A stretch of DNA of 64,000 nt from Bacteroidota bacterium (GTDB taxonomy: Bacteria; Bacteroidota; Ignavibacteria; Kapaibacteriales; UBA2268): contig SCSM01000027.1 in NCBI GenBank assembly GCA_004322215.1, positions 124,001 through 188,000 of the forward strand, read 5' to 3'. Under the pieces are notes generated by a model. It ran no database searches. It saw nothing but the letters and a program-made list of their open reading frames with translations, and was not told where the DNA came from. Position 1 is the first letter of the stretch, and each line of letters begins with the position of its first letter. The position numbers and the translations under genes were made by a program. Shown in pieces: positions 39,981 to 61,665 of the stretch.

Positions 39981-40029
39981 TTATCTCATTTTTCCATTTT
40001 GTCATTCCGTACCTGATACAGAACCCATA

Positions 40030-40064
40030 GTCGTTATCCCATTTGGATGCTGAACCAAGTTCAG
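40030..40064. repeat. dispersed GCTGAACCAAGTTCAGCATGACA repeat between korA and korB
   Basis: GCTGAACCAAGTTCAGC (40049-40065 region) is an inverted repeat followed by ATGACAG. The preceding CATTCCGTACCTGATACAGAA is also typical of these elements. It occupies the only sizeable gap inside the kor operon. Confidence 0.55.
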
Positions 40065-40084
40065 CATGACAGTTTTGAATAAAA

Positions 40085-43828: not shown

Positions 43829-44914
43829 TTATAATACAGATTTCAAAGTATCAGCATAAATCTCATTTTCCTCGGGCAATCCGATAGTAACTCTTATGCA
43901 ATGAGGGAGTAAAAACGGCTTCAGTGCTCTCACAATAACACCCTTCCTCAAAAGCTTATCCGTTATATCATTCACACGCATTTCTGAATCGAAAATACTC
44001 ATAACAAAATTTGCCTCGGTATTTACATATTCGATACCGAGCCGGTCATAAACATCATAAATGAATTGCTTTCCGCATTTATTCAGATTCAGGTAATAAT
44101 CGAGAAATTGTTTATCGGTCAATGCGGCTACGCCTGCTGCCTGCGATGGGATACCCGGTTCAAACGGCAACCGAACCTTATGCATTTGCTTTATCAGTTC
44201 GGGGTGAGCAAAACCATAACCAATTCGGATTCCTGCCAAACCATAAGCTTTGGAGAAGGTTCTCGTTGTGATTACATTATCAAACCTGTAATCCATCGAG
44301 TCAGGGAAATCAGGATGGTCCATAACAAATTCAATATATGCCTCGTCAACCATTACTATTACTTCTGGCGGTACTGACTTCATAAATTCTTCGAATTCGG
44401 ATGTTGTATAAATTGTACCAGTCGGACTGTTGGGGTTTACAAGATATATCATTTTTGTCCTTGGAGTAATCGACGCAGCTATTGCTTTCAAGTCAAACCT
44501 GTAATCCTTCAACGGGACTAAATTCATTTTAATACCGCAAGCTTTTACCATTACATAGAATCCGACAAAAGTACCTTCTGCAGTAATGACCTCATCTCCG
44601 TTCATCAGAAAGGTTCTGACGGCAGTTTGCATTATTGCTTCCGAACCGTGGCCTGTAACAATGCAATCGAATCCTACGTCGAACATTTCTGCTAACTTAG
44701 AACGCAAGAGCAGACTTGCAATATCGGGATACCTGTTTATCTGGTGAATAGAGCCAATCATTGCCTGTATTGCAAGAGGAGATACGCCAAGCGGGTTTTC
44801 ATTCGAAGCCAGCTTGACAATTTTTTCCAATCCAAACTCACGCTTGACATCGTCAATCGGTTTCCCGGGTCTGTACGGCTCAAGGTTTTTTATATATTCT
44901 GCTACTAATGCCAT
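43829..44914 (-). CDS. HisC-like PLP aminotransferase
   Basis: The 361-residue fold-type I aminotransferase resembles histidinol-phosphate aminotransferase: LASNENPLGVSPLA, NPNSPTGTI, DEAYIEF and the PLP lysine in TRTFSKAYGLAGIRIGYG. HisC relatives also transaminate phenylalanine and tyrosine. No other histidine-biosynthesis gene is near. It is flanked on both sides by ketopantoate-reductase-like genes 17-18 bases away, so it may supply the 2-oxoacid those enzymes reduce, for example an aromatic one. This link is inferred from context. Confidence 0.85.
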   Translation of the reverse strand: MALVAEYIKNLEPYRPGKPIDDVKREFGLEKIVKLASNENPLGVSPLAIQAMIGSIHQINRYPDIASLLLRSKLAEMFDVGFDCIVTGHGSEAIMQTAVRTFLMNGDEVITAEGTFVGFYVMVKACGIKMNLVPLKDYRFDLKAIAASITPRTKMIYLVNPNSPTGTIYTTSEFEEFMKSVPPEVIVMVDEAYIEFVMDHPDFPDSMDYRFDNVITTRTFSKAYGLAGIRIGYGFAHPELIKQMHKVRLPFEPGIPSQAAGVAALTDKQFLDYYLNLNKCGKQFIYDVYDRLGIEYVNTEANFVMSIFDSEMRVNDITDKLLRKGVIVRALKPFLLPHCIRVTIGLPEENEIYADTLKSVL

Positions 44915-44932: not shown

Positions 44933-45895
44933 TTATATAATATTTCCGTTCAAACAACATTTCTTCGTTATAGCTTTCACAAGATTAGTAAAAGTCAGAT
45001 TCAAGGGAGTCTGCTTGTAATGCTTCCTTCCGTATTCCACAATCTTGCCATTGAAATAATCAATTTCAGTCTGCCTGTTATTTGCAATGTCAACAGCAAG
45101 TGAAGGTATGTGGTCTCCGTAATTTTTCAGTTTTCTCAGTGATAATTTCACAAAATTTTCGTTGAATCTTATACCTTCAGCTTTGGCTACCTCCATTGAT
45201 TCCACTATTGACTGTTCTATGATTTCCACTGTATCGGGATTAGACATTGCCTCGCACATAGAAAGATTTGATAATCCGCAAATCGGTGATATAGAGGCAA
45301 TCAAAATTGTTTTTTTCCATACTTGTTCATTTATTAAGAAAGAATCGGTGTTTTCAGTGAACATATCGACACCCGATAAAGTATCGGCAATAATCTTAGC
45401 TATTTCGGGATGAGTGTCATTAATCGAGGCAATGTAATTCGGCGGCTCGAAGAAACTGACATTAACAACATTTGGGGAATGAAGAACCCCCGCAAAGTTG
45501 ATTACCATTCTTAGAATTTGCGATTCATCGAAATGACTCGTGTATTTCAATCCGATTTCAATTCCATTTTGAGCACAAAGAAGATAAAGATTACTGTGAG
45601 AATACTTTTCGACCTGGTCTAATATAGTATCAATCCTGTATGATTTTACGCAGCTGATTAATACATCAATATCATGAGTGAGAAGTTCCCTGACCGAAGA
45701 ATAATTGTAACCGAAAAAAGACGATTTCTTGAATGAGCCGATAAGCTCCACACCGTGATTGCGAATCAAATTCATCTTTTCTTTGTCGGTATCGCAGATT
45801 GCAACTTCACAACCCGCCTGCTTGAAATGAACGGCTAAAATAAGTCCGACAGGACCCAAGCCGATTATTCCGATTTTTAATTTTTTTTCTTCCAT
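44933..45895 (-). CDS. ketopantoate reductase (PanE/ApbA) family, paralog 2
   Basis: The 320-residue protein parallels the one at 42858 along its length (GIIGLGPVGLILAVHFKQAG, SCVKSYRIDTILDQV, CAQNGIE, VWKKTILIASISP, TEIDYFNGKIVEYGRKHYKQ, TPLNLTFTNLVKAIT). Catalytic Lys and Glu are retained, but the asparagine four residues after the Lys in paralog 1 (KTILN) is isoleucine here (KTILI), a difference at a substrate-contact position. The substrates may therefore differ. The two copies look like a duplication around the aminotransferase. Confidence 0.83.
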   Translation of the reverse strand: MEEKKLKIGIIGLGPVGLILAVHFKQAGCEVAICDTDKEKMNLIRNHGVELIGSFKKSSFFGYNYSSVRELLTHDIDVLISCVKSYRIDTILDQVEKYSHSNLYLLCAQNGIEIGLKYTSHFDESQILRMVINFAGVLHSPNVVNVSFFEPPNYIASINDTHPEIAKIIADTLSGVDMFTENTDSFLINEQVWKKTILIASISPICGLSNLSMCEAMSNPDTVEIIEQSIVESMEVAKAEGIRFNENFVKLSLRKLKNYGDHIPSLAVDIANNRQTEIDYFNGKIVEYGRKHYKQTPLNLTFTNLVKAITKKCCLNGNII

Positions 45896-45928: not shown

Positions 45929-47143
45929 TCAATTCATCTGCTCGATGAATGCCTCTATTTTTGTCGTTGTTTGTGCCTCAGAGAAAAATCTCAAATCGCA
46001 CAAATCCCCTTCAATAACAAGTGTCTCCACCCCGGTCTTTTCTTTTAACCGTTGTGGCATACCAAACCTTGAATTTGAATTATTGAAGCAGGTTTTCGAG
46101 TCGTGGAAAACTACACCATTAATTTTGTATTCATTAATAAGGTTCTCCATAACTTTTTGTTTTACTTTCTCGCTCCTGTTAATGAAGATTGTAGAATATG
46201 CCAGAGCGGTTGATTCGAATGGTTTATTCTCATCGAAGTCATCGAATATCCAGCTATTGCAATATGTCGAAGCAACTACTGCAGCATTATGCTTTGCAAA
46301 TAATTCCGACATATATCTCAGTTTTCCCCAAATCGGCATACCTTCCCAGTATATCCTTGTCTTCTCATTTTCGATTATACCCGAACTTTGCTTCACATGT
46401 CCTTCGAGTTCATTCAGCAGAACTTCGTAATAATGTTTTGCAATTTCAGTCCCTCTTAAAACAACTATGGGACCCATGTGGATTGTGCTGTCGAAAAAGC
46501 TAATCGGAGCAGGTATATTTTTGGCTGTCTCAAGCGAACGTTTCCAAAGAAATGTCGCTTCCTTGCTCAGTTTTAATGTTTCACGGAATTTGTCAATATC
46601 AAACTTTATTCCCGATGCTTTTTCAAAAACGGGAAGCATAGATTTGAACTGAGCAGTTACATTTTCAATATCTTCCTTTTTTACTTCATCCAGATGACGC
46701 GGAGATTGAACTCCAACAATCGGAGCATTAAATTCTTTTGCAAAAAACATCAGCCAGTCCTGAACTTCACGGCATTGATTCGTATTGTAAACAAGCACAG
46801 ATGGTTTGGGTACACCCTTTAATCCATAATGCTTCATCATTGGTGTATCTTTACTGAGATAAGAGCCGATATCACTTGTCAGGTATGAGCAAATGTCACT
46901 GGAATATCCAAGCTTGGATGCGACCGGGATGTAATCACCGGATGTACGGGTAGTACCGAGTAAAGCCCCGTGATTTTCGGGAAAATATACCTCAAACCCG
47001 AAACTGCGTAAAAGCTCAGCCGGTCCCACACTCGTACACCAGGCAATTTTTTTGCTTTCATCACCCATTCCAACAAAATAATTTGTCATCACTTCTTTTA
47101 ACAATTTTGCTGATTCTATCTTGTGCATAACACCTCTGTTCAA
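45929..47143 (-). CDS. extra HgdB/BcrB-family iron-sulfur protein
   Basis: The 404-residue protein (or 399 from the ATG at 47128) belongs to the 2-hydroxyacyl-CoA dehydratase / benzoyl-CoA reductase subunit family. PAELLRSFGFEVYFPENHGA, LGYSSDICSYL, YNTNQC, YWEGMPIWGKLRYM, VVASTYCNSW and VFHDSKTC appear in order. It has exactly six cysteines (36, 85, 124, 295, 352, 382); 85, 124 and 352 match the usual cluster ligands. Only one such subunit is present outside bzdNO, whereas dehydratases and reductases use two different ones, so it may work as a homodimer with the extra ATPase at 33969. Substrate unknown. Confidence 0.82.
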   Translation of the reverse strand: MNRGVMHKIESAKLLKEVMTNYFVGMGDESKKIAWCTSVGPAELLRSFGFEVYFPENHGALLGTTRTSGDYIPVASKLGYSSDICSYLTSDIGSYLSKDTPMMKHYGLKGVPKPSVLVYNTNQCREVQDWLMFFAKEFNAPIVGVQSPRHLDEVKKEDIENVTAQFKSMLPVFEKASGIKFDIDKFRETLKLSKEATFLWKRSLETAKNIPAPISFFDSTIHMGPIVVLRGTEIAKHYYEVLLNELEGHVKQSSGIIENEKTRIYWEGMPIWGKLRYMSELFAKHNAAVVASTYCNSWIFDDFDENKPFESTALAYSTIFINRSEKVKQKVMENLINEYKINGVVFHDSKTCFNNSNSRFGMPQRLKEKTGVETLVIEGDLCDLRFFSEAQTTTKIEAFIEQMN

Positions 47144-47149
47144 TTAAAT

Positions 47150-49225
47150 TCAAATACTGATTCTGGCATCAACGACAACGATTCTGTCTTCATAAGCAAG
47201 CAAAGGATTAAAGTCCAGCTCTTTTATTGAAGGATTTTCAGTTACAAGTTGTGAAAGCCGTTCAATGATTTCAACCACACCATCCTGATAAATACCTTTT
47301 TCTCCACGAAATCCTTTTAACAATTTTGCCATCTTGATTGATGACAACATTTCTTTTGCCTCGTCATTAGAAACAGGAGCTAATTCAAATGAAACATCCT
47401 TCAATATTTCAACATAGATTCCACCCATACCGAACATCAGCAAATGCCCGAGACCGGCTTCCTGCTTAGCTCCGATTATTAGTTCTTTTCCACCCGAATG
47501 AAATTTCTGAACAAAGAATTTCAAATCTTTCACAGAAAATTTATTTTGCATTTCACTTGCCTTCGCAAAAACATCATCTTTATTTTTCAGATTAACAGCA
47601 ACTCCACCAACATCGCTTTTGTGAATTATTTCTGAGGAATCCGCTTTAATCACAACAGGAAATCCGATTTCTTCTGCTGCTGAGACCGCATCCTGTACTT
47701 CATTTGCAATCTTCCATCCGGCTGATGGAATTTTATACGAATCGAGAATGCTATAAACTTCCCTGGCAGACAAAATAATTCGACCTGATGATTTTACTAC
47801 TGATATAATATTTTCAACTTCCCTCTTGCTGCAATCATCGAAATGTTTCACTATACCTTTCTCTCTTGTACGAAGTGCATTGTATCTGCAAAGTGAGACG
47901 AGTGCTTTAGCTGCCGTACCGGGGAAATCGTAACAGGGAATTCCACCTTCTTTCAGGATTTTTGTTGTACCTGTCCACTGTGCCTTGTCAGTCATATAAT
48001 TGCAGACAATCGGCTTTCTTCTTTGTTTGCTGATTTGGGCAAATTCCCGGGCAACCGCTTCACAATCTACGAAAGGTGGTGTAACGAAATTAATATACAC
48101 ACTGTCTATTTGCTCCTCATCCATCATTACTTCAACAGCACTGCGGAACTGGGGAGCTCCTGCGGTTGCTACTACATCAATCGGATTATTTATTGATGCA
48201 GCTTCAAACATAGTCTCTTTTAATCCAGCAATTGCTTTCTCTGAAAGTGGCGGCATTTCACATCCACCGCCAACAAGTTCATCGGTTGCAATGATTGCGG
48301 GACCACCCGTGTTTGTAATCATACCGACACGGTTGCCTTTCGGTATTGGCTGTGATGCAAATGCAACTGCCGCCTGGCACATTTCCTGTGCATCATTGAA
48401 AGCAAGAATTCCTGTTTTTTTGAAAATCAAATCAGTTGCTTTTCCGCCAGCGAGACCACCTGTGTGGGAAGTAGCGGCTTTAGCACCTTCTTCAGTCCTC
48501 CCTGCATTCATTGCAAGGAGCGGCTTTTTTGAGGCAACTTCATAAGCAACATCCATAAAGTATTTCGGGTCATCGAGACTTTCGACATATAACAAAATAA
48601 CACGAGTCTCATCATCATTTCCCCAATACTGAATTATTTCGGGTATTGATATATCGCAGGCATTTCCGTTAGATGCATACATTCTCATTCCGACATCCAG
48701 GTCAAAAAGGTTCTGCATTATAACCGCACCGACACCGCCGCTTTGAGCAACTATCGAAATATGTCCGGGCTTGGGATAAGTGAATGTAAAATCGCAATAA
48801 GCATTATACTCAGGGTCAGAGTTGATTATACCCTGACAGTTGGGACCGAAAATTCTAACACCATATTTTTTCCCTCTTGCCACAAAATCATTTTGAAGTG
48901 CTTCGCCTTCAACTCCCATTTCTTTGAAACCTGCTGTATTGATGATTACATTCTTCACACCTTTCTTACCGCAATCTTCAACTGCCTGAGGAACCATTTG
49001 CGGTGGAATTACTATGTGAGCTACATCTACTTCACCGGGAACATCAAAGATTGTCGGATATGCCTTAATGCCCCTTATGTCCGGTGCTTTAGGATTTATC
49101 GGATAAATCGGACCTGTAAAATTATATCTTTGCAAATTCTTTATAATAACATTTCCGATTGACAATTCTTTCGTTGATGCACCAATCAGTGCAACGGCTC
49201 TCGGTTTAAACAAGGAATCAAGCAT
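47150..49225 (-). CDS. ADP-forming acyl-CoA synthetase
   Basis: The 691-residue protein has alpha and beta parts fused. The start is the ATG at 49225; the open frame reaches a TTG five codons earlier. The CoA-binding domain (LFKPRAVALIGAS), ligase domain (FGPNCQGI; AQSGGVGAV) and the phosphohistidine motif SHTGGLAG form the alpha part. GFPVVIKADSSEIIHKSDVGGV is the ATP-grasp beta part. Such enzymes interconvert acyl-CoA, ADP and phosphate with acid, CoA and ATP. In this locus it may activate benzoate, or work backwards to make ATP from an acyl-CoA product. Specificity is not readable. Confidence 0.88.
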   Translation of the reverse strand: MLDSLFKPRAVALIGASTKELSIGNVIIKNLQRYNFTGPIYPINPKAPDIRGIKAYPTIFDVPGEVDVAHIVIPPQMVPQAVEDCGKKGVKNVIINTAGFKEMGVEGEALQNDFVARGKKYGVRIFGPNCQGIINSDPEYNAYCDFTFTYPKPGHISIVAQSGGVGAVIMQNLFDLDVGMRMYASNGNACDISIPEIIQYWGNDDETRVILLYVESLDDPKYFMDVAYEVASKKPLLAMNAGRTEEGAKAATSHTGGLAGGKATDLIFKKTGILAFNDAQEMCQAAVAFASQPIPKGNRVGMITNTGGPAIIATDELVGGGCEMPPLSEKAIAGLKETMFEAASINNPIDVVATAGAPQFRSAVEVMMDEEQIDSVYINFVTPPFVDCEAVAREFAQISKQRRKPIVCNYMTDKAQWTGTTKILKEGGIPCYDFPGTAAKALVSLCRYNALRTREKGIVKHFDDCSKREVENIISVVKSSGRIILSAREVYSILDSYKIPSAGWKIANEVQDAVSAAEEIGFPVVIKADSSEIIHKSDVGGVAVNLKNKDDVFAKASEMQNKFSVKDLKFFVQKFHSGGKELIIGAKQEAGLGHLLMFGMGGIYVEILKDVSFELAPVSNDEAKEMLSSIKMAKLLKGFRGEKGIYQDGVVEIIERLSQLVTENPSIKELDFNPLLAYEDRIVVVDARISI

Positions 49226-49263
49226 ATTTCTATCTCTCAAGTATCAAATAAAAAAACTTAAAT

Positions 49264-49678: not shown

Positions 49679-52231
49679 TTAAAACAAATCATCCAACTCG
49701 TCCCCTGCATCAGGCATTTTACCATGCTTCTGCAAATACTGTTGAAGCAATTCGCTTTCACGCTTTGTGAACATAGGGTCAAGCTCGTAAATGAAATATG
49801 GATAATCTTTTTTTTCTTTTACCCACTCAAGCATAGTCTTCCTGATATTATCAGTACCTTTTATAATATCAACTTCTTTATCATTATTTAAAATCTGAAT
49901 TACACCTTCTGCTTCGGGTAATCCATCAATTATTTCCTTGTTGAAAGTAAGATATTTTTCCGGTGGCATAGGATTATGTCCCAAATGGAGCCGTAGGTCA
50001 CACTGAAGACATCTTGTAGATTCAACCAATGCTTCGACAGAAGTATAAGTTCTTTCATAAGGTTCGAAATTTTGAATTCTATATTCAGAAACATTCACCT
50101 TTGCTTCTGTTCTTTGCAGGGTATTGAAGCCATCATTTCTGCCTATGAACATATTATATTCTTTATTCAAACCGTCTTCGGTTTCGATAATACCATCGCC
50201 CCCGAGGTATAAGTCAATAGAACGGGCGGCTTTTCTTCCAGCCCCAACTGCCTCTATTACAGACTTTGGTCCATAGACAATATCACCGCCTGCATAAACT
50301 CCTTTTATACCTGTTTCGAGAGAATCTGAATTTGCTTTTATCAAACCTTTGTTTAATAATTTTGATAATTCAGTTTCATCGGAAATGTCTGCTTCCTGTC
50401 CAACACAAATAATTACCGAATCCGTAATTAATTTATCAGTAATTGATTCATCATAAACAGGAGAGAATTCTAGCTTCTCATCAAATACTCTCGTGCATTT
50501 CTTTAATATTATTCCGGTTTTATTTTCTGTATTGCAAATCGTTGAAATTCCCCAACCATTGAGAATTTTGATACCTTCTTCCTGTGCTTCTCTTATTTCA
50601 TCCTCGTATGCAGGCATTTCGTTGAATTGTTCGAGGCAGACAATAGTTACATCTTTTGCTTTCAATCTGACTGCACATCGTGCGGCATCGGTAGCCACAT
50701 TACCACCACCAATAACAACAACGGATTTCCCTTCAAAATAATCATCCGGTAAGCTTTTCTTTGCCAGTGAATTTAAAAACTCCACACCATAATTGACAGA
50801 AACATCATCGGATATTTGAATTGGCAATCGTCTGCTTTTTGATAGTCCGACACTTATAAATACAGAATCCGTGCCATTACCGAGCAATGCATCGAGTGTT
50901 ATATCTTTTCCAAATATTGTATTGGTTTTAACATTAATACCGGAACTTAAAATCCAATTTGTATCTCTATTTAACACATCTTCTGATAATCTGTATCGGG
51001 GAATACCATATCTTAGCATGCCACCTATTTCGCTTTCTTTTTCATAAAGGATAACATTATGTCCTTTCAGTGAAAGAAAATGTGCGGCTGAAAGACCGGC
51101 AGGACCTGCTCCTATTACTGTAACATTCTTCCCGGTGTTCTCTTTTAATTTTTTTGGAGGTTTCAATACACTGTTTGTCATGGCATAATCTTTAATCAAT
51201 CTTATGCTCATTGCATTTTTATTTGTATTAGGCACTGACAGCAAATCATTCTTCTTGCAGGCAGTTTCGCAAGGATGGAAGCATACCTTACCCAGAACCG
51301 AAGGAAGTGGAAGACTTGCTGAAATCACATCCGCAGCATCCTGTGGCTTTCCTTCCCGAACCAGCCGTACATACTGTGGAATATCAACTTCACCGGGACA
51401 ACTTGCTTTGCAGGGAACAAAATCTTTGTATTCCTTCAATCTTGGACTCACCTTATCCATAATTGCACCTGTCGGGCAAACCTCAACGCATGAGCCGCAG
51501 AACCGGCATGCCGCATTATCGAGTAAAGAACCATCAACAGTCCCTACAACTAATTTCCCATTGTTAATAACAGCGCCGAGAGCATATACTCCTTTTACCT
51601 GCTGGCAAACTCTTACACATCTGCCACATCCAATACATAAATTATAATCACGATTGAATAGCGGGTCTTCTGTAATTCTCGGTAAATTTCTGAACTGGTA
51701 TCTCGGTGTTTCAGGAGCTATTCCGACATAATCTGAAACTCTCTGAATTTCGCAATTGTTCAATAATGCACAACATCTTTCATTGAATACAACATTTCCG
51801 GGGCATACATCGGTCATCGGGATACATCCTTCTCTCTGGGCGCAGGTCAGGCAGGAATGAGGATGTGTTGCAAGTATTTTCGAAAGATTTTCTCTCCGTC
51901 TTGTTATGATTGATTCATTTTCCGTAATGATTTTCATTCCTTGCCGCACAGGTATTTTGCATGATGGTAACATTTCAGATTTATCTTCATCCATAACAAG
52001 ACAAACACCACAGCCCCTTATGGAATCAATCGTAGCTCCGGCATCATTCTCTATTTTATTTTCACCCTGGTAAATGAAAGGTGATAATTCGACGGTATTA
52101 AAATGCCCTAAATCGGGATGACTGCACAATACGGGAATATATATACCTACGGAAGCTGCTGCATCCAGTACAGTCATGCCTTCCGGGACATTAATCTCTA
52201 TATTGTTAATTGTTAAACTTATCTGATTCAT
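49679..52231 (-). CDS. BzdV-like fused iron-sulfur flavoprotein NAD(P) oxidoreductase
   Basis: This is an 850-residue multidomain protein. The order is a NuoG-type [2Fe-2S] domain (C36, C74, C77, C91), a His-Cys3 cluster region (H123, C127, C130, C136), two [4Fe-4S] motifs (C199-C209 and C242-C252), then a GltD/glutamate-synthase small-subunit-like part. That part has extra cysteines (274, 278, 317, 321, 325), FAD motif VIGAGPAGLS (372) and NAD(P) motif VVIGGGNVA (505). It lies directly after the ferredoxin gene of the bzd operon, where Azoarcus has bzdV, thought to reduce ferredoxin with NAD(P)H. The added N-terminal half recalls bifurcating hydrogenase and formate dehydrogenase subunits. 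Confidence 0.82.
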   Translation of the reverse strand: MNQISLTINNIEINVPEGMTVLDAAASVGIYIPVLCSHPDLGHFNTVELSPFIYQGENKIENDAGATIDSIRGCGVCLVMDEDKSEMLPSCKIPVRQGMKIITENESIITRRRENLSKILATHPHSCLTCAQREGCIPMTDVCPGNVVFNERCCALLNNCEIQRVSDYVGIAPETPRYQFRNLPRITEDPLFNRDYNLCIGCGRCVRVCQQVKGVYALGAVINNGKLVVGTVDGSLLDNAACRFCGSCVEVCPTGAIMDKVSPRLKEYKDFVPCKASCPGEVDIPQYVRLVREGKPQDAADVISASLPLPSVLGKVCFHPCETACKKNDLLSVPNTNKNAMSIRLIKDYAMTNSVLKPPKKLKENTGKNVTVIGAGPAGLSAAHFLSLKGHNVILYEKESEIGGMLRYGIPRYRLSEDVLNRDTNWILSSGINVKTNTIFGKDITLDALLGNGTDSVFISVGLSKSRRLPIQISDDVSVNYGVEFLNSLAKKSLPDDYFEGKSVVVIGGGNVATDAARCAVRLKAKDVTIVCLEQFNEMPAYEDEIREAQEEGIKILNGWGISTICNTENKTGIILKKCTRVFDEKLEFSPVYDESITDKLITDSVIICVGQEADISDETELSKLLNKGLIKANSDSLETGIKGVYAGGDIVYGPKSVIEAVGAGRKAARSIDLYLGGDGIIETEDGLNKEYNMFIGRNDGFNTLQRTEAKVNVSEYRIQNFEPYERTYTSVEALVESTRCLQCDLRLHLGHNPMPPEKYLTFNKEIIDGLPEAEGVIQILNNDKEVDIIKGTDNIRKTMLEWVKEKKDYPYFIYELDPMFTKRESELLQQYLQKHGKMPDAGDELDDLF

Positions 52232-52263
52232 AATTTATTACCAGCCTAACAACTTTCTAAATC

Positions 52264-52551
52264 TCACCACGAATGTACGATAGCATCCAGCTTGCAAGCC
52301 ATTATGCAGGGAATATTTTTCATATTCGCTTCCGGTTTGCAGGGTGAACAGGAATATTTAATTTTTTTCCTTTCAGATTCTTTAACTGCAGCCATTTTGT
52401 CATCAGCCATCGGGTCGAAATCATTATCCCTGATTTCAAGCACACCGGCAGGACAAACAGGCACACAATCGCCGCAACCATTGCATTTGTCGGTGTCAAT
52501 ACTAATGAAGTAATCACCCGAGCCATCTTTATATCCGAAATTTGCAATCAT
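52264..52551 (-). CDS. bzdM: 2[4Fe-4S] ferredoxin of the benzoyl-CoA reductase operon
   Basis: The 95-residue protein has a first cluster motif CNGCGDCVPVCP and a second, atypical CSPC-x11-CIMAC near the C-terminus, with an insertion of ~30 residues between them. It lies 15 bases after bzdQ and 32 before the BzdV-like gene, the bzdM position in Azoarcus. It should carry low-potential electrons from the BzdV-like protein or KorABCD to BzdNOPQ. Confidence 0.88.
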   Translation of the reverse strand: MIANFGYKDGSGDYFISIDTDKCNGCGDCVPVCPAGVLEIRDNDFDPMADDKMAAVKESERKKIKYSCSPCKPEANMKNIPCIMACKLDAIVHSW

Positions 52552-52566
52552 ACTTTTCCTTATTAA

Positions 52567-53433
52567 TTATTTTCTTTCTTTTTCAACGAGTGCTTTTGCA
52601 AATAATGCCGCACCCAAAGCACCTGCAATCTGCGAATCGTAGTTTGTCTGCAAAGTTTCAATTCCAAGTTCTTTGAGCAGTCTTCTTACAACACCCGAAT
52701 TTTTTGCAATGCCGCCTGTAATAACAAAATCTTTTTCAACTCCGATTCTGTCGAGTAAAGTTACAACTCTGTGAGCCATCGCTGAACAATAGGCAGCAAT
52801 AACCTTATTCTTGGGCCAACCTTCTCTCAGCAATCCGGTAGCTTCTGTTTTTGCGAACACGACACAAGTGCTGCTGACAGGTGGAGGTTCCTCCTCGACA
52901 CCAAAAGATAAATCACCGATTTCTTCAATCGGAACAGATAATAAATCAGCAAAAACTTCCATGCCTCTGCCGGTTCCGGCAGCGCATTTATCATTCATCA
53001 GAAAATTAGCAACTTTTCCTTTTTCATCACAGCGGATTGCCTTGCAGTCCTGTCCGCCCATATCGAGAATTGTTCTTACCGAGCCGCCATACATCAGGTT
53101 TGCTCCTCTTGCGTGGCAGGCAATTTCTGTTATTGTTTTATTGGCAAACGGAACATTTACTCTGCCATAACCTGTTCCGATTACATAGTGTATATTCTCA
53201 AGTTTCATTCCTGAGCCATCCAGAGCCCAGTTCATTGCATTGACTGCACTCTGCGGGCTGTCGGAGCCGGTTCTCATGCTTGAATAAGCATATAATTCTC
53301 CATCGACAAGGATCACTGCCTGTGAGCTCACAGAGCCGACATCAACGCCACTGCTGATAATTGAACCGCCCTTCCAGTCAATATTTTCATTCTTCCAGTT
53401 ATATTCTTTCCAACGCCAGAACTCCTGTGCCAT
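52567..53433 (-). CDS. bzdQ: benzoyl-CoA reductase ATPase subunit (BzdQ/BcrD type)
   Basis: The 288-residue ASKHA ATPase has an N-terminal extension typical of BzdQ/BcrD (FWRWKEYNWK), nucleotide motifs SSGVDVGSVSSQAVIL and GTGYGR, TILDMGGQD, and the two cluster-binding cysteines in NDKCAAGTGRG and STCVVFAKTEA. With BzdP it forms the ATP-driven electron-activation module, one [4Fe-4S] cluster at their interface, in the cytoplasmic reductase. Confidence 0.93.
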   Translation of the reverse strand: MAQEFWRWKEYNWKNENIDWKGGSIISSGVDVGSVSSQAVILVDGELYAYSSMRTGSDSPQSAVNAMNWALDGSGMKLENIHYVIGTGYGRVNVPFANKTITEIACHARGANLMYGGSVRTILDMGGQDCKAIRCDEKGKVANFLMNDKCAAGTGRGMEVFADLLSVPIEEIGDLSFGVEEEPPPVSSTCVVFAKTEATGLLREGWPKNKVIAAYCSAMAHRVVTLLDRIGVEKDFVITGGIAKNSGVVRRLLKELGIETLQTNYDSQIAGALGAALFAKALVEKERK

Positions 53434-53457
53434 TTACTTCTCCATTTATATTATTAA

Positions 53458-53500
53458 TATTTTCATTATTCACTGTTAGTTATTCATTATTCACTAATAA
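53458..53500 (-). repeat. GTGAATAATG-type repeat at the bzdP 3' end
   Basis: Read on the minus strand, AGTGAATAATGAATAACTAA then CAGTGAATAATGAAAATATT. The stop codon of bzdP lies inside it. It is related to the repeats at 24172 and 25595. Confidence 0.5.
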
Positions 53501-54248
53501 GAGCTGCCCCGTAAGCCGAGATATATTCAGGATTATCGGGTATTATTATTTCGGATTCGAGTGCTTTTTTCAATGATTGCACAAAGCCGATATTTTTCGC
53601 CATTCCACCAATTAACTCAATATCCTTTTCAAAGCCGACTTTTCTTGCCATCGAAGTTATACGGGATGCAACTGCATCATTCACTGCTTTTGCAATATCT
53701 TTCTTTTCAGTTTTTGCGTGAAGAAGCGATACAACTTCCGATTCTGCAAATACTGCACACTGTGCATTTAATGGAATTTCCTTATCGGATTGCAGTGATA
53801 TAGAACCGAAATCTTCAACGGGAATTTCCAATGCCCTCGACATTGCTTCGATAAAAGCCCCTGCACCGGCTGCACATTTTTCGTTCAGAGCAAAATCTAT
53901 AATCTTTCCATCGGCATCGCATCTTATTGTTCTGCCTTCTTCGGCACCTACGTCAATCACACATCTTACCGAAGGGAGCAATGCTGCTGCACCTTTTGAT
54001 GCCGCTGTTACTTCAGTTACACTTTTATTTGCAAAATCTGCGGCTTTTCTTCCGCTTCCGGTTGATGTTATTGAATTAATCTGTTCCGGCGTTATTCCGG
54101 CTTGCTTTACAACATCATCAAAAAGTTGCTTTGTAGTTATTTGCGTTTCAAAACCGGCAAGAGTCAGCCCCTTTGCAAGAATTTCACCATCCTTCAAAAC
54201 AACGATTTTTATATTTTTTGCACCTACATCTATTCCTACATTTATCAT
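53487..54248 (-). CDS. bzdP: benzoyl-CoA reductase ATPase subunit (BzdP type)
   Basis: The 253-residue ASKHA ATPase has GIDVGAKNIKIVVL, STGSGRKAADFANK, VIDVGAEEGRTI, and cluster cysteines in NEKCAAGAGAF and NAQCAVFAESEV. Its short length assigns the enzyme to the Bzd (Azoarcus) subtype, since BcrA/BadF of the Bcr subtype are ~430 residues. The last residues and stop codon fall within a dispersed GTGAATAATG repeat. It pairs with BzdQ. Confidence 0.92.
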   Translation of the reverse strand: MINVGIDVGAKNIKIVVLKDGEILAKGLTLAGFETQITTKQLFDDVVKQAGITPEQINSITSTGSGRKAADFANKSVTEVTAASKGAAALLPSVRCVIDVGAEEGRTIRCDADGKIIDFALNEKCAAGAGAFIEAMSRALEIPVEDFGSISLQSDKEIPLNAQCAVFAESEVVSLLHAKTEKKDIAKAVNDAVASRITSMARKVGFEKDIELIGGMAKNIGFVQSLKKALESEIIIPDNPEYISAYGAALISE

Positions 54249-54275
54249 ATATACCTCATAAATTTTATTATACTT

Positions 54276-55586
54276 TTAATGAATTTGGTTCATACCTAAG
54301 GTTTCCATAAAAGAATCTATTCTGCCCATAGTTTTTGCTTCGTCGAATTCTCTCTCGTCACCCATATTTCCTTCAAAAGTCATTACCGGGTAACCGGCAT
54401 CAATCAGTGCTAAACGGTTTTCTGCAATACCAAGCGAAAGACCTTCGCAGCCACGGTTGTAGTGGAGCATTATTCCGTCGAGCTTCCATTCCTTAGCAAT
54501 TCTAATCATCATATCACTCTTGATATGCGGTGAATAGAAATGCTGCCACTCGGGTTTGCTCAGATTCCAGTCTGCAAGTATTCTCAAAGCCTGGTCACGG
54601 GTTTCAATCTTTATTCCATTCTGTTGAGGAGTTGTTCTTGGTCCCCAGGTGCCATCGGGTTTATCTTCCCAAACACCAATCAATCCGAATGTATAAAGTG
54701 AGCCGATTGAAACTGCCCCGAAATTTTCGAGGTACCTGAATACATTCAGAAATCCCCAGGGTGGTTGTGTGTCGGACATCAATCTGCACCTTTCGTGGGC
54801 TGTTGCTGCTATTTGGTTTTCTGCCCTGTATTTGACCTCATCACGCAATTCCTCGTAAAAGTCGGCAGTGGTTTTAGCATGTTTCTCCAATGTTCCGAGA
54901 ACGTAAAGCGAGTACATGGATTTTTCATCGAGTGGTGCAGGAATACCTTTGTTCAACCGGCAAACTTCAGCCCAGACTGAAGTCGCTCTGCACTCGTTAT
55001 TCACGGCCTCAATCAACAAATCATCATTGTATCTTCTGCCTGTAACTTTCTCGAGCCATTCAATTCCCTCATGCATTTGACTGACTAAATAATCAATCCT
55101 GCTTTCTGTTACGTCCTGATAGGGACCGACAGCTACATCAATGCTGTAAGTAGGGACACCTCCACCTTCGAGTTCATTTGCGACCTGGTACCATTTGGCA
55201 TGACTGCAGCATATATGGTCCTGCCACATAAAATCGGGCTTTGGAAATTTACCGCCGTATAAAAATTCATCGAGAATTATAGAACCCCAATAGGTACGCA
55301 TATAGGAACATAAATCCCTTGCATAACCTTTCTTTTCCGTTGCTTCGAGACAACGCAAAGAAAATTCTTTATTGAATGCAATTCCAGCGGCATAAGGTTC
55401 TCCGGTAATCGGGAAGATGTCGTTTCCCAATCCGGCAGGTATGGCGCCGAAGCTCCACGCACCGCCAGCCCAGCGAAGTCCTCCATTATCGTGGGCATTT
55501 GCATATCTTTTATAAAAATTCGCTCTTAGCTCTTTTGCTTTATTCCAGCATTTCAATTGTTCGGTTTTATATGTTGGTATTGCCAT
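54276..55586 (-). CDS. bzdO: benzoyl-CoA reductase catalytic subunit (BzdO/BcrB type)
   Basis: The start is the ATG at 55586, where AAGGAG stands six bases upstream; an in-frame ATG at 55601 would overlap that site. The product has 436 residues. Blocks of the subunit are [50 protein letters not shown] and [14 protein letters not shown], which carry the cluster-ligand cysteines. Together with BzdN it holds the active-site [4Fe-4S] clusters and binds benzoyl-CoA, which it reduces to cyclohexa-1,5-diene-1-carbonyl-CoA with two electrons and ATP. It follows bzdN almost directly. Confidence 0.94.
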
Positions 55587-55601
55587 TATTTTCTCCTTCA
55601 T

Positions 55602-56732
55602 TTAAAATAAATCTTCTTCCTGGAGCATTTCCAGAAATGCCTCAACGCGTATCTTGAACTGCCCTATAGGAACCGTCACGTCAAATTCCAGGAACAATGT
55701 TTTTATGTCATTTTCATTGAATGTTTTAATTATAGCCGGAATATCGAGTTCGTGAGGGTCACAGAATTTTTGCTGAATTACTATAGCACCCTTTGCATCG
55801 AAATCCTTCGCAAGTTTTAACAAATGCGGAATCCTGTTCCTTTCAATCCAGTCCTTGCTCGGACAGGCAGGACGCTCAATATACCGTTTAGCTATTGATT
55901 CAAGCAAATCTCCCCTGTTAACATTTACGTTATTCCAGAAGTATCTTGTACCTACACAATGGTCGTCAATCACAACCGTTCCGCCAACAGATTCCACCAT
56001 GCGGACAAAAGGAATGTCGTCATCTTCACTGCCAAGTATCATTAAACGGGTTCCTTTATTGACAGAATTGATAGCTCCTCCTTCAAGCTGCTCGACAAGA
56101 CTTTTCAGCAATGGTGAATGTTCTCTTTTGTCAACCATCTGCTGAGACATGGCAACCTGCATTGCTTCTTCACCTGATACAGGAGGTGTATCATTTTTTC
56201 TGAACGAATAAAGTTTATGCATCAAACTTCTGTTTTCGTTCATTATTTCTATCCCTTTTTTCAAATCATCGTTAGTTATTTCCCTGCCTGTCCATTTTTC
56301 AACCGCACTTTTGAATTGCTTTAATTCTGCAGTCAGATATGGCACTGCATGCTTGCTTTGTACATTATTAGGCATGGGAAGATAATATGAGAAACTTTGT
56401 GGAATATGCTTCACCCAGCTTGTGTATGCCTGTCGTATATGAAGACAGGATTGCGAAATCATCACTCCGTCCAGATAATCATATCTTCCTTTCAAACCCT
56501 GTGCAAGACAATCCCTGCAGAACGGACAAAACATTCCGAATATATGTGGTTCAGTTACATCCTGTGGTTCGTGGCTCCCTAAAATCCTTATAGGAAGAAT
56601 ATCGGCAGCATACAAAATCTCTTCAGGTACATAAGTGCAGAAGTATCCTAAAACTTTTCCTCCTGTTTTTTCCTTCCAATTTTTAGCGTATGCGTGTCTG
56701 TTTTCTTCCCAATCCCGAAACTGAGAAATCAT
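55602..56732 (-). CDS. bzdN: benzoyl-CoA reductase catalytic subunit (BzdN/BcrC type)
   Basis: The 376-residue protein has GYFCTYVPEEILYAADILPI, MFCPFCRDCLAQG, GVMISQSCLHIRQAY, IDDHCVGTRYFW and QQKFCDPHELD with the conserved cysteines of BcrC/BzdN. It is the partner of BzdO in the catalytic half of the reductase and comes first in bzdNOPQM, as in Azoarcus. The ATG has GGAGAT upstream. The 260-bp region before it (56733-56992) contains an AT-rich repeat and may hold its own promoter. Confidence 0.94.
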   Translation of the reverse strand: MISQFRDWEENRHAYAKNWKEKTGGKVLGYFCTYVPEEILYAADILPIRILGSHEPQDVTEPHIFGMFCPFCRDCLAQGLKGRYDYLDGVMISQSCLHIRQAYTSWVKHIPQSFSYYLPMPNNVQSKHAVPYLTAELKQFKSAVEKWTGREITNDDLKKGIEIMNENRSLMHKLYSFRKNDTPPVSGEEAMQVAMSQQMVDKREHSPLLKSLVEQLEGGAINSVNKGTRLMILGSEDDDIPFVRMVESVGGTVVIDDHCVGTRYFWNNVNVNRGDLLESIAKRYIERPACPSKDWIERNRIPHLLKLAKDFDAKGAIVIQQKFCDPHELDIPAIIKTFNENDIKTLFLEFDVTVPIGQFKIRVEAFLEMLQEEDLF

Positions 56733-56992: not shown

Positions 56993-58183
56993 TTATAATT
57001 CTCTCTTAATAACTGTTGCAATACTAACACCTCCACCGCCGCATATAGCTGCAATGCCGAAGGTCTTATCCAATCTTTTTAATGCATGATATAGCGTAAC
57101 AATAATCCTTGCTCCGCTTATACCTGTCGGATGACCAAGAGCAATAGCACCACCATGTACATTCAACTTTGTCCTATCCCATTTCAGTTCTCTTTCATTT
57201 GCCAGAACCTGAATGGCAAATGCTTCATTCACTTCAATTAAATCCATATCATCGAGATTCATTTTTGCATTTTTCAATGCTGCGGGAATCGAAAATGCAG
57301 GTCCCTCTCCCATTACTGATGGAGCCACAGCTATCTGTCCATACGATACAATCGAGAACAATGGCTTTGCTCCTATTTCTTCAGCATGTTTCCTGTGAGT
57401 GATTACCAGGGCAGTTGAACCGTCGCTCAGTCCACATGAATTACCGGCAGAGACTGTCCCGTCCTTACGAAATGCAGGTGGTATCTTTGCCATTTTTCCT
57501 TTATCTATTTCATATCTAATCGTTTCATCTTTGTCGAATATTACAGGAGGGTTTTTACCAATGGCTGGTATTTCGACATGTGTAATCTCATCATTGAACC
57601 AGCCGTTCTTTTGAGCTGCAGCGGCTTTCAGGTGACTGCTTACTGCAAATTCATCCTGCTCTTCTCTCGGAATTTTATATTTGTCGTAAAGGTTTTCAGC
57701 GGTTTCGCCCATTCCCTGCCCGATAAGCGGGTCAATGCTGTCGCTCCAACCGTCTTCGAGAGTTTTGTTACCCATCTTGAAGCCGTCCCATCTGGCTCCT
57801 TTTAATAAATAAGGTATTGTACTCATGCTGTCGAATCCGCCGATGAGAACCGTATCAGCTTCACCAAGACGGATTGCCTGGGAAGCAAAAACCAAAGCTT
57901 TCATACCAGACGGGCAAGCCATATTGAGTGTAACTACCGGAACAGAAATATCCACTCCTCCACGAACGGATGCAGACCTTGCGGGATTCGGACCATTACC
58001 TGCCTGGCGGCAGCTTCCGAGGATTACTTCGTCAATTTGATTACCTTTTAGATTTGCGCGGCTCAGCGCTTCACGAATTGATACTGCACCCAAATCATAA
58101 GATGCAATAGATTTCAAACTACCGCCGAATTTTCCCATCGGCGTTCTCACTGCCGAAACGGCAACGATGTCATTAAGTTCCAT
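56993..58183 (-). CDS. acetyl-CoA C-acetyltransferase (thiolase)
   Basis: The 396-residue classic thiolase has nucleophile Cys in NMACPSGMKALVF (~89), NEAFAIQVLAN, HGGAIALGHPTGISGAR with catalytic His, and CGGGGVSIA with the second Cys. It splits acetoacetyl-CoA or another 3-oxoacyl-CoA with CoA, or condenses two acetyl-CoA. In the bzd operon it probably serves the last step from glutaryl/crotonyl-CoA to acetyl-CoA. It is distinct from the divergent thiolase at 31391. Confidence 0.93.
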   Translation of the reverse strand: MELNDIVAVSAVRTPMGKFGGSLKSIASYDLGAVSIREALSRANLKGNQIDEVILGSCRQAGNGPNPARSASVRGGVDISVPVVTLNMACPSGMKALVFASQAIRLGEADTVLIGGFDSMSTIPYLLKGARWDGFKMGNKTLEDGWSDSIDPLIGQGMGETAENLYDKYKIPREEQDEFAVSSHLKAAAAQKNGWFNDEITHVEIPAIGKNPPVIFDKDETIRYEIDKGKMAKIPPAFRKDGTVSAGNSCGLSDGSTALVITHRKHAEEIGAKPLFSIVSYGQIAVAPSVMGEGPAFSIPAALKNAKMNLDDMDLIEVNEAFAIQVLANERELKWDRTKLNVHGGAIALGHPTGISGARIIVTLYHALKRLDKTFGIAAICGGGGVSIATVIKREL

Positions 58184-58456: not shown

Positions 58457-59200
58457 TTATATATACTGTCCACCATCAACCTTAATGACTTCGCCTGTAA
58501 TATGCCTCGATAATTCACAACAAAGAAAACATACGACATCAGCGACTTCATCCGGCTGGCCCATCCTGTTTAAAACAATTTCCTGTAATGCCGCAGAACG
58601 CACATTTTCGGGTGCATCTTTCATCATATCCGTTTCGATTAAACCCGGTGCAACTGCATTTACATTTACAGAATATTTTCCTAATTCTTTTGCTACTGCT
58701 TTTGTTAAGCCAATGATTCCCGCTTTTGAGGCAGAGTAATTCGATTGCCCGAACTTACCTCTCAGTCCGTTAATTGAAGTAACATTAACAATTTTGCCTG
58801 ATTGCTGTTCGCGAAAGTGAGGAGAAACCGCACGTATGTAGTTAAAGTAGCCCTTCAGATTAATATCCAACACCTTATCCCACTGCTCTTCCGTCATCTT
58901 CCAAATCACTCCATCCCAATTTATCCCCGCATTATTGACCAAAATGTCAATTCTTCCGAAACGGGAAATCACTTCACTAACCATTTTGTCTGCATCGTTA
59001 AAATTAGAAACATCTGACTGGACTGCAATACCCTGTCTGCCAATAGCTTCTATTTTCTTTATTGTCTCATCGGCTTCATCTTTATGCTTCCGATAATTCA
59101 AAGCTACATTAGCACCGTATTCTGCCAGTTTCAGAGAAATCGCATTTCCGATTCCAATGCTTCCTCCTGTAACGATTGCAGATTTACCTTCAAGATTCAT
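58457..59200 (-). CDS. short-chain dehydrogenase, FabG/PhaB-like
   Basis: The 247-residue SDR has TGGSIGIGNAISLKLAE, NNAGINWDGVIWKMTEEQWD, catalytic Ser in VNVTSINGLRGKFGQ, Tyr-Lys in YSASKAG, and VAPGLIETDM. WKMTEEQWDKVLDINLKGYF and DGGQYI are close to acetoacetyl-CoA reductases (PhaB) and to SDR-type 3-hydroxyacyl-CoA dehydrogenases. With the adjacent thiolase it could oxidise 3-hydroxybutyryl-CoA or make 3-hydroxybutyryl-CoA. AAGGAA stands before the ATG. It is the first gene of the minus-strand locus. Confidence 0.9.
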   Translation of the reverse strand: MNLEGKSAIVTGGSIGIGNAISLKLAEYGANVALNYRKHKDEADETIKKIEAIGRQGIAVQSDVSNFNDADKMVSEVISRFGRIDILVNNAGINWDGVIWKMTEEQWDKVLDINLKGYFNYIRAVSPHFREQQSGKIVNVTSINGLRGKFGQSNYSASKAGIIGLTKAVAKELGKYSVNVNAVAPGLIETDMMKDAPENVRSAALQEIVLNRMGQPDEVADVVCFLCCELSRHITGEVIKVDGGQYI

Positions 59201-60576: not shown

Positions 60577-61665
60577 ATGTTAGCATCTCATGACTTGGTA
60601 GAAAAAATTGATTTAAAAGGTGGAGTTATTTATGAAAAGCGTCCCTGTCTCGACGCAAAGGGAAAGCCATGTGAAGGCATATACAATGCTTGGATTATTC
60701 TTAATAATCCTTCCCAATTTAACTCTTACACAACAGATATGGTCAAGGAAGTTATTCTATTAATGCGCCAGGCATCGAATGACAGGAGTGTTGTTGCGGT
60801 TGTGTTCACTGCTGTCGGTGATAAGGCATTCTGTACGGGTGGAAACACAAAAGAATATGCTGAGTACTATTCTGGAAATCCTCAAGAGTACAAGCAATAT
60901 ATGCGATTATTCAATGATATGGTTTCGTCAATTCTTATGAATGACAAACCAGTGATTTGCAGGGTTAACGGAATGAGAATCGCAGGAGGACAGGAAATCG
61001 GAATGGCTTGTGATTTTACGATTGCATCTGACCTTGCCCGTTTCGGACAAGCCGGTCCCAAGCACGGTAGCGCTCCCGATGGCGGCTCTACTGACTTTCT
61101 TCCTTTGTTTGTAGGAATAGAAAATGCAATGTATTCTTGCACGGTTTGTGAACCCTGGTCAGCTCACGAAGCAATGAGATATGGATTAATAACGAAAATT
61201 GTTCCGGCTTTAAAAGTAAACGGTGAGTATATCCCTAATCCTCTTGTTTACACAGACCGATGGGTGAATGCTCAGGGTGAAATGATTTATGGTAAAGCTA
61301 AAACCGGCGATGACCTTGCCAAAGGAAAAGAAATTCTAAAAAGCGGCGTTGTTGACCTAGCACTACTTGACAAAACTGTTGAAGATTTTTGTACCCGGTT
61401 GATGCTCACAATGCCAAACTGCCTTAGTAAAACTCTGAATTCAGTACGTAAGCACAAACTCGAACATTGGGATAAAAATAAGGAAAGTAACCGCGACTGG
61501 CTTGCATTAAATATGATGACAGAAGGAAAAGCCGGTTTCAGGGCATTCAATGAAGGACCGAAAGACAACAGGGAATGTGACTTCGTTAAGCTGCGCCAAA
61601 TGTTAGCCGAAGGACATGAATGGAATGATGAACTTATAAAGGCGATTTCGCCTCAATATAAATAG
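60577..61665 (+). CDS. oah: 6-oxocyclohex-1-ene-1-carbonyl-CoA hydrolase
   Basis: The 362-residue crotonase-fold enzyme is almost colinear with BamA/Oah/BzdY. NNPSQFNSYTTDMVKEVI, VFTAVGDKAFCTGGNTKEYA, VNGMRIAGGQEIGMACDF and GQAGPKHGSAPDGGSTDFLP are diagnostic. It adds water to the 6-oxo substrate and opens the ring to 3-hydroxypimelyl-CoA. It is the widely used marker of anaerobic aromatic degradation. Unlike the other pathway genes it is on the plus strand, after a methyltransferase and a DUF4405 gene, so it is regulated separately from bzd. TAGGAT stands before the ATG. Confidence 0.96.
   Translation: MLASHDLVEKIDLKGGVIYEKRPCLDAKGKPCEGIYNAWIILNNPSQFNSYTTDMVKEVILLMRQASNDRSVVAVVFTAVGDKAFCTGGNTKEYAEYYSGNPQEYKQYMRLFNDMVSSILMNDKPVICRVNGMRIAGGQEIGMACDFTIASDLARFGQAGPKHGSAPDGGSTDFLPLFVGIENAMYSCTVCEPWSAHEAMRYGLITKIVPALKVNGEYIPNPLVYTDRWVNAQGEMIYGKAKTGDDLAKGKEILKSGVVDLALLDKTVEDFCTRLMLTMPNCLSKTLNSVRKHKLEHWDKNKESNRDWLALNMMTEGKAGFRAFNEGPKDNRECDFVKLRQMLAEGHEWNDELIKAISPQYK

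Follow-up and report, generated by a model that had tools for sequence, protein, structure and literature searches.

A probable Bzd-type benzoyl-CoA reductase operon and its companion genes in an uncultured bacterium of the Ignavibacteriota/Kapaibacterium group

Does ATP-dependent reduction of the aromatic ring by class I benzoyl-coenzyme A (CoA) reductases extend to uncultured relatives of the Bacteroidota and, if so, where did the genes come from? The question is raised by a stretch of 64,000 nucleotides (the window; positions 124,001 to 188,000 of contig SCSM01000027.1, assembly GCA_004322215.1), in which six open reading frames (ORFs) had been taken for a Bzd operon in an earlier, sequence-only reading. 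Our analysis indicates with high probability that these ORFs encode a genuine Bzd-type ATP-dependent class I benzoyl-CoA reductase, accompanied by most of the pathway, in an uncultured bacterium of the Ignavibacteriota/Kapaibacterium group. We assigned proteins by using NCBIfam models with curated bit-score cut-offs, together with Pfam families, and confirmed all six ORFs on the minus strand between positions 49679 and 56732:

55602..56732, minus strand: bzdN, electron-storing subunit of class I benzoyl-CoA reductase (TIGR03190, 480.7 bits, cut-off 453.8; six double-cubane Cys kept)
54276..55601, minus strand: bzdO, catalytic subunit (TIGR03191, 676.2 bits, cut-off 448.6)
53487..54248, minus strand: bzdP, activase subunit, 253 residues (TIGR00241, CoA_E_activ, 216.4 bits, cut-off 125.4; operon position)
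52567..53433, minus strand: bzdQ, activase subunit, 288 residues (TIGR03192, 455.1 bits, cut-off 380.2)
52264..52551, minus strand: ferredoxin in the BzdM position (Pfam Fer4 families)
49679..52231, minus strand: BzdV-like flavoprotein, 850 residues (NuoG/hydrogenase-like Fe-S N-terminus and GltD-like NAD(P)-binding part)

BzdN, BzdO and BzdQ all exceed the cut-offs of their own models, which bears out the assignment to the Bzd subtype. BzdP is recognized by the generic activase model, with no BzdP-specific model among its NCBIfam matches, and the BzdV-like flavoprotein reaches no NCBIfam cut-off among the 25 matches listed. Short high-scoring matches of BzdP to transcription activator-like (TAL) repeats in the PDB were dismissed as compositional. 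The Bcr/Bad-type reductases of Thauera and Rhodopseudomonas belong to the same enzyme class, but the BzdO of the window lies far under the cut-off of the BcrB model (56.3 bits, cut-off 486.55). The short BzdP, which had been proposed as a mark of the Bzd subtype, turned out not to be decisive by itself, the BcrD model being likewise short (262 positions). It is the short BzdQ that discriminates, since the BcrA model has 432 positions and the BcrA-like protein of genome G336 has 487 residues.

The gene order had been described as that of Azoarcus. Aromatoleum (Azoarcus) sp. CIB (BzdNOPQ-M-V; PDB 8S02; PMC11971306, PMC6678401) does share with the window the subunit types, the N-O-P-Q-ferredoxin order and a V-type flavoprotein. 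The description fails for V, however, because the published Azoarcus operon is bzdNOPQMSTUVWXYZA (PMC6678401; the order is also given in PMC5658619): there, S, T and U stand between M and V, whereas none of the three lies between the ferredoxin and V genes in the window.

We then compared the residues described as BzdNO cluster ligands and catalytic residues in Aromatoleum (PMC11971306). The cluster ligands and the catalytic Glu and His are common to the two systems, whose overall identity is 62% for BzdO (428 residues) and 52% for BzdN, and 10 of the 11 checked positions of BzdO are identical in the window. In particular, Cys95, Cys128, Cys380, Glu65, His131, Trp46, Tyr97, Gln274 and Tyr298 (Aromatoleum numbering) are also identical in 81 out of 81 other loci. 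The ligand and acid/base residues correspond to Cys98, Cys131, Cys385, Glu68 and His134 of the window BzdO, all of which are conserved. The double-cubane cysteines of BzdN are complete in the window (6/6), and each of them is found in 75-78 of 78 loci, the remainder being gaps.

The window lies on a contig of 238 kb in a genome (G000) of 4.2 Mb that is 96.7% complete. Among 40 genomes searched, three further members of the same genus (G001-G003) have an rpsA with 82, 77 and 77% identity to the one on this contig, and the others reach at most 59%. Judging by this marker and by the kinship of its congeners, the host is a member of the uncultured Ignavibacteriota/Kapaibacterium group and hence of the Fibrobacteres-Chlorobi-Bacteroidetes (FCB) group. 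The expectation of a Bacteroidota-related host was therefore correct, and rpsA gives no sign of a host within Proteobacteria. BzdO scores above its cut-off in 8 of the 54 genomes of the host family (window's own counted), including all four of the genus (4/4), and in a ninth family genome, G030, bzdO is split over two contigs. Six genera of the family, among them the one with the split bzdO, have the same neighbours around the core genes. In two congeners a gene for a WD40-like protein (by eye) with a C-terminal tail resembling those of the type IX secretion system (T9SS) stands between bzdO and bzdP (L039:10810-12141 in G001, L043:15318-16307 in G003), and the window is without it. G003 also carries a duplicate of the bzdO 3' end at L043:16313-16576.

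In genome contigs 127 BzdO loci were confirmed, and we describe the spread of the operon from the best 80 of them (the named loci). These come from Planctomycetota, Gemmatimonadota, Aminicenantes, Elusimicrobia, Zixibacteria, KSB1, Bacillota, Chloroflexota, Asgard archaea, Thermoplasmata and others. None of their titles names Proteobacteria, a few saying only 'bacterium', and plasmid records returned matches below 25% identity only. The complete N-O-P-Q-ferredoxin-V order is present in 61 of the 80, including clusters of uncultured Planctomycetota, Gemmatimonadota and Asgard archaea that share this core with the window and differ in their accessory genes; around 12 of the 19 loci without the full order stop at a contig end (coordinates as read). 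In a Gemmatimonadota locus the bzd genes are followed directly downstream by four more genes, which form a divergent second set of reductase/dehydratase-like character (L087:16200-20235). Class I genes have also been reported in Dehalococcoidia, Anaerolineae, Deltaproteobacteria, Aminicenantes, TA06, Thermoplasmata and Bathyarchaeota (PMC6472368), as bcrABCD in metagenome-assembled genomes (MAGs) of Krumholzibacteriota and Deltaproteobacteria (PMC10936416), and as a Bzd cluster in Hermodarchaeota, with Bcr genes counted in other Asgard genomes (PMC8163825). The window had been thought to extend class I reductases to a group otherwise without them; the data do not support this view, and Bzd-type loci span many uncultured phyla.

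The origin of the operon was addressed with a BzdN+BzdO tree of 80 rows (83 BzdO rows minus 3 without usable BzdN) and with a tree of 33 of these rows. The sample was chosen by similarity to Ignavibacterial BzdO, its sole proteobacterial rows are Aromatoleum PDB chains, and the deeper order is unsure. In the 80-row tree the 10 Ignavibacterial rows form one clade (100 in the Shimodaira-Hasegawa-like approximate likelihood ratio test, SH-aLRT), which stands near KSB1, Zixibacteria, Planctomycetota and Gemmatimonadota, while Aromatoleum is a long branch beside LCP-89. The clade is recovered with support of 100/100 in the 33-row tree. GC content is 0.383 over 29-60 kb and 0.361 in the remainder of the window. 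At third codon positions (GC3), the bzd genes range from 0.27 to 0.42 and overlap other window genes; since this range brackets the 0.35 of rpsA, there is no sign of a recent arrival. In our reading, the operon is a conserved trait of several genera in the lineage and no recent import from Proteobacteria.

Two histories of transfer can be weighed against these data. Exchange among uncultured FCB, Planctomycetota and Gemmatimonadota lineages, instead of from Proteobacteria, seems to us an evenly balanced proposition. The nearest rows mix Planctomycetota, Gemmatimonadota, KSB1 and Zixibacteria, the 16 labelled groups of the 80-row tree require 24 changes where the minimum is 15, and the host family, order and class hold Bzd or Bcr in different genomes with companion genes alike. 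However, the deep branches are weakly supported (57/22 for the exact sister of the Ignavibacterial clade in the 33-row tree), foreign contigs may be present in bins, and an unrooted tree gives no direction. The other history, a recent acquisition from Azoarcus/Aromatoleum-type Proteobacteria in line with the transfer that had been envisaged, is very improbable. It can draw on the N-O-P-Q-ferredoxin core order in common with the published Azoarcus operon, but forcing Aromatoleum into the Ignavibacterial clade of the 33-row tree, with one proteobacterial sequence in the comparison, is 42 log units worse and rejected by the approximately unbiased (AU) test (p-AU 0.0007). Moreover, the nearest non-Ignavibacterial loci among the best 80 of 127 reach 76-78% BzdO identity, above the 62% BzdO (and 52% BzdN) identity of Aromatoleum, the core keeps its neighbours across genera of the family, and the GC3 of the bzd genes is host-like. 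Hardly credible at all is the idea that the subunits form a 2-hydroxyacyl-CoA dehydratase and no reductase, since, although the superfamily is the same and BzdN matches HadC at 186 bits (cut-off 700), BzdO does not group with the dehydratases (139.8 bits on the HadB model against 676.2 on its own) and has the reductase-site His134 (Aromatoleum has His131 at this position and, by PMC11971306, HadB has Ala).

The Bzd-type reductase is embedded in a larger set of genes. The range of 49679-56732 given for the operon does contain the core; the pathway, however, is wider and covers about 29.3-61.7 kb plus a dch-like ORF past the window:

29313..31394, minus strand: 693-residue protein with a C-terminal crotonase fold (ECH matches at about residues 414-630)
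31391..32602, minus strand: divergent thiolase (Pfam Thiolase_N/C)
32794..33849, minus strand: had (TIGR03201, 454.3 bits, cut-off 338.65)
34730..37540, minus strand: fused FeS and Mo subunits, 4-hydroxybenzoyl-CoA reductase-like (alpha model TIGR03194, 959.9 bits, narrowly under the cut-off of 994.55)
37552..38439, minus strand: molybdenum hydroxylase FAD subunit, HcrB/XdhB-like (NF043083, 222.1 bits, under the cut-off of 310; beta model TIGR03195, 129.5 bits, under 404.55)
38644..41236, minus strand: korA, korB and korC, 2-oxoacid:ferredoxin oxidoreductase (alpha, NF006412, 544.5 bits, cut-off 411; B and C under their cut-offs)
41486..42271, minus strand: XdhC-like maturation factor (NF045664, 232.1 bits, under the cut-off of 350)
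42278..42856, minus strand: MocA-like nucleotidyltransferase for the Mo cofactor (NF045665, 103.8 bits, under the cut-off of 315)
42858..43811, minus strand: panE1, PanE-like dehydrogenase (TIGR00745, 152.3 bits, cut-off 141.35)
43829..44914, minus strand: hisC-like aminotransferase (TIGR01141, 304.5 bits, cut-off 276.55)
44933..45895, minus strand: panE2, PanE-like 2-oxoacid/2-hydroxyacid dehydrogenase (TIGR00745, 147.3 bits, cut-off 141.35)
47150..49240, minus strand: acl, ADP-forming-type acyl-CoA ligase, 696 residues (NF045493, 526.7 bits, under the cut-off of 1300; TIGR02717, 458 bits, under 567)
56993..58183, minus strand: acetyl-CoA acyltransferase, a thiolase (TIGR01930, 421.7 bits, cut-off 240.55)
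58457..59200, minus strand: short-chain dehydrogenase/reductase (SDR), 3-oxoacyl reductase-like (TIGR01830, 289.2 bits, under the cut-off of 297.75; subfamily NF009466, 252.5 bits, cut-off 222)
60577..61665, plus strand: oah (TIGR03200, 591.3 bits, cut-off 464.45)
G000:C37:188174-188914: dch-like, the ORF beginning 144 bases beyond the window end (226.6 bits, under the cut-off of 292.5)

Congener G002 matches the window collinearly for about 30 kb of the cluster, whose order is mostly kept in G007 and G018, with oah, the divergent thiolase and the 693-residue gene moved in one or both; korABC lies outside the G007 cluster. The absence of dch from the window does not point to its loss, as the dch-like ORF sits just outside. 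The N-terminal 400 residues of the 693-residue protein have no Pfam or NCBIfam match at the thresholds used and look by eye like a 3-hydroxyacyl-CoA dehydrogenase. An Acidobacteria protein encoded close to bzd shares 62% identity with the 693-residue protein. The catabolic region is flanked on one side by a T9SS type A sorting-domain protein (26659-27822) and on the other by an open-ended ORF (62137-63999) that looks by eye like one for a secreted repeat protein. A gene of the 23S rRNA-intervening-sequence protein family lies amid protein-coding genes at 25618-25959.

While gene content, order and residues are observed here, the mechanism is modelled on the conserved residues and on the published Aromatoleum enzyme. 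Ferredoxin would be reduced by KorABC and/or the BzdV-like flavoprotein (in Rhodopseudomonas, the electron suppliers are AadN or KorAB; PMC9973337). With ATP hydrolysis, BzdPQ would pass electrons from ferredoxin to the [8Fe-9S] cluster of BzdN, and from there they would reach the aqua-[4Fe-4S] site of BzdO, where benzoyl-CoA would be converted to 1,5-dienoyl-CoA. Dch, Had and Oah would open the ring, and the thiolases and dehydrogenases would oxidize the ring-opened product.

Several observations weigh against a complete and typical Bzd pathway. Ser44 of Aromatoleum BzdO, which is hydrogen-bonded to the catalytic Glu65 (PMC11971306), is Gly in the window and in all other loci (81/81), and Gln124, conserved in the window, is kept in 78 of the 81. 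The trait is patchy, with BzdO above its cut-off in 2 of 395 phylum-sample genomes, one being the window's own, and around seven named loci (for example L066, L071, L096, L097, L100, L120 and L121) lack or rearrange a gene within the sequence. The Mo-enzyme falls under all 4-hydroxybenzoyl-CoA reductase cut-offs (alpha and beta as listed, gamma 184.4 bits against 257.8). The Dch model, though the best NCBIfam match of its protein, reaches its cut-off in 0 of 12 genomes. Finally, unlike Aromatoleum, the window has no BzdA-type ligase above cut-off, and benzoate-CoA ligase (TIGR02262) is above cut-off in 0 of 13 genomes (best G000 match 221.3 bits, cut-off 375.25; control 1/14). With these points taken into account, we set the probability of a genuine Bzd-type class I reductase with most of its pathway at about 0.92.

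Compared with Aromatoleum, the window adds korABC, the molybdenum hydroxylase, the ADP-forming-type ligase and a module composed of a third protein of the HGD-D family, its activase and PanE-like dehydrogenases. The first two components of the module are:

45929..47143, minus strand: third HGD-D (PF06050) protein, HgdB/HadB-like (PF06050, 203 bits; NF052455, 223.7 bits, under the cut-off of 750)
33969..34730, minus strand: activase partnering the third HGD-D protein (TIGR00241, 181.3 bits, cut-off 125.4; overlaps the Mo-enzyme gene by one base)

The third HGD-D protein follows the reductase closely. Of the genomes in the family and the phylum sample, 13 have a class I reductase, be it of the Bzd or Bcr type, and the protein was found in all 13. 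Within the family it occurs in 11 of 11 reductase genomes (G030 counted) and in 1 of 43 others. The exception is G015, a genome 76% complete in which a bzdV fragment is close to it. Four genomes of the phylum sample have a reductase, and exactly these four have the protein. These genomes are related, and P-values for the co-occurrence are thus descriptive only. BcrB exceeds its cut-off in two of the 54 genomes of the family and in two of the 395 in the phylum sample, and a Bcr-type reductase takes the place of Bzd in family members G433 and G009 and in the more distant G045 and G336 (in G336, Bcr C, B and D are above their cut-offs and A is under, 430.8 against 578). The Bcr-type set lies amid the same companion genes in G045, G336 and G433; in G009 these companions are on other contigs. 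In the tree of the third HGD-D protein, with G015 left out of the labels, the reductase type has to change 3 times, at least two of these changes being forced by the branches starred in the tree.

The neighbours of the protein are also recurrent. An activase homologue adjoins the hgdB-like gene in G010, G030 and G433. PanE-like genes are near the third HGD-D protein in G000-G003, G007, G015, G018, G030, one G009 copy, G336 and G433. A single protein of 601 residues in G045 combines a PanE-like dehydrogenase with a CoA-dehydratase activase (L148:4324-6129). No PanE was found in the stretches covered of G012, of the second G009 copy and of the Acidobacteria locus L091, and the G010 contig ends too soon to show one. 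Among the 80 named bzd loci the protein occurs in 10 (flanks up to 10 kb): five are Ignavibacterial and the others are L091, L103 and L104 (Hodarchaeota), L115 (Heimdallarchaeota) and L125 (Lokiarchaeota).

Two possible roles of the module emerge from the comparison with known systems. The third HGD-D protein shares its modelled fold, three cluster cysteines and a partner activase with (R)-2-hydroxyisocaproyl-CoA dehydratase (HadBC/HadI) and with double-cubane cluster proteins (DCCP), but no second subunit was found for it and it falls under both curated cut-offs. A first, tentative possibility is that it feeds the benzoyl-CoA pathway: an aromatic amino acid might be converted to the 2-oxoacid, the (R)-2-hydroxyacid, the 2-hydroxyacyl-CoA, cinnamoyl- or coumaroyl-CoA and finally (4-hydroxy)benzoyl-CoA. 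The enzymes of this route would be the third HGD-D protein and its activase, along with the PanE-like proteins, the aminotransferase of the hisC-like gene and the acyl-CoA ligase. HadB is the best sequence match of the protein among solved structures, and the two share the W-x-x-S-V-x-P and P-E-N stretches, which are absent from BzdO and BcrB and which we take to line the HadB active site. The fold itself does not discriminate, since the model (mean predicted local distance difference test score, pLDDT, 76) matches HadB (Z 37.0, root mean square deviation 2.7, 386 aligned) and BzdO (Z 36.0) in a tie. Characterized 2-hydroxyacyl-CoA dehydratases have two subunits, whereas the PF06050 proteins of G000 are BzdN, BzdO, the third protein and one short frame of 273 residues, with no other full-length subunit found.

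Gene neighbourhood gives a similarly mixed picture of this feeder route. In its favour, two panE genes enclose the hisC-like gene in the window, G001, G002, G003, G007, G015 and G018, the cluster has two separate thiolases, and PanE and activase are fused in G045. Some PanE-type enzymes are D-2-hydroxyacid dehydrogenases; for panE1, every solved relative bears the label 2-dehydropantoate 2-reductase. We found hisD in 0 of 13 group genomes at E<=1e-20 (control 13/14; G015 is outside the 13), which suggests histidine auxotrophy in the group of G000 and 12 relatives and makes it unlikely that the hisC-like gene serves histidine synthesis. It is, on the other hand, the sole HisC-like match in G000 at E<=1e-40, and aromatic transamination is no more than a candidate role for it. 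Against the route, hisC is outside the stretches covered of the Bcr-type genomes (about 4 kb before in G433; no match in G009 at E<=1e-40) and on another contig in G010 and G012, panE is missing from the three covered stretches named above, and the module was seen in just 10 of the 80 named loci, within flanks of up to 10 kb.

The second role, an ATP-driven reductase of the double-cubane kind acting on another aryl- or acyl-CoA, we regard as unlikely. Of the five invariant cysteines of the third HGD-D protein, four align with the double-cubane ligands of BzdN and the fifth is one column off, but the sixth ligand (BzdN Cys293) is missing and the double-cubane model NF040772 gives 58.4 bits against a cut-off of 350. 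A broader proposal, to which we give limited credence, is that the third HGD-D protein, which unites dehydratase-like catalytic motifs with most of the double-cubane-type cysteines, might be self-sufficient with its own activase and an obligate companion of class I reductases throughout the phylum. Together with the PanE-like dehydrogenases and an aminotransferase it might serve an undescribed anaerobic route from Phe/Tyr or other aromatic 2-hydroxyacids through a cinnamoyl-type CoA to benzoyl-CoA, with Bzd and Bcr exchanged among the same companions.

As for the lineage itself, benzoate-degradation genes have been noted in a Melioribacter MAG, with bcr, bzd and the reductase not named (PMC8115662), and a Bacteroidota MAG (MAG 18, as read) expresses benzoyl-CoA degradation enzymes (PMC8099898), while the available parts of PMC5648843 and PMC10766756 report no class I reductase in Ignavibacteria. 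Our literature search, which covered few subscription journals, found no description of a Bzd-type reductase for Ignavibacteriota or Kapaibacteria. While the core adds a member to an enzyme class already known, the cluster with its companion module is a variant that may have a further function. New is the observation that class I reductases are accompanied by a third HGD-D protein, which has an activase to itself and, in most cases, PanE-like genes close by.

The operon belongs to a lineage for which we found benzoate-degradation genes reported only briefly, and it is a further indication of how widely uncultured phyla share ATP-dependent ring reduction, with the proteobacterial Bzd sequence, in a small sample, set apart from the remaining tree. 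The two reductase types lend themselves to a natural comparison, as Bzd and Bcr are exchanged while their companion genes stay the same. The companion module is a testable candidate for the entry of aromatic side chains to benzoyl-CoA, which may proceed without a canonical benzoate-CoA ligase.

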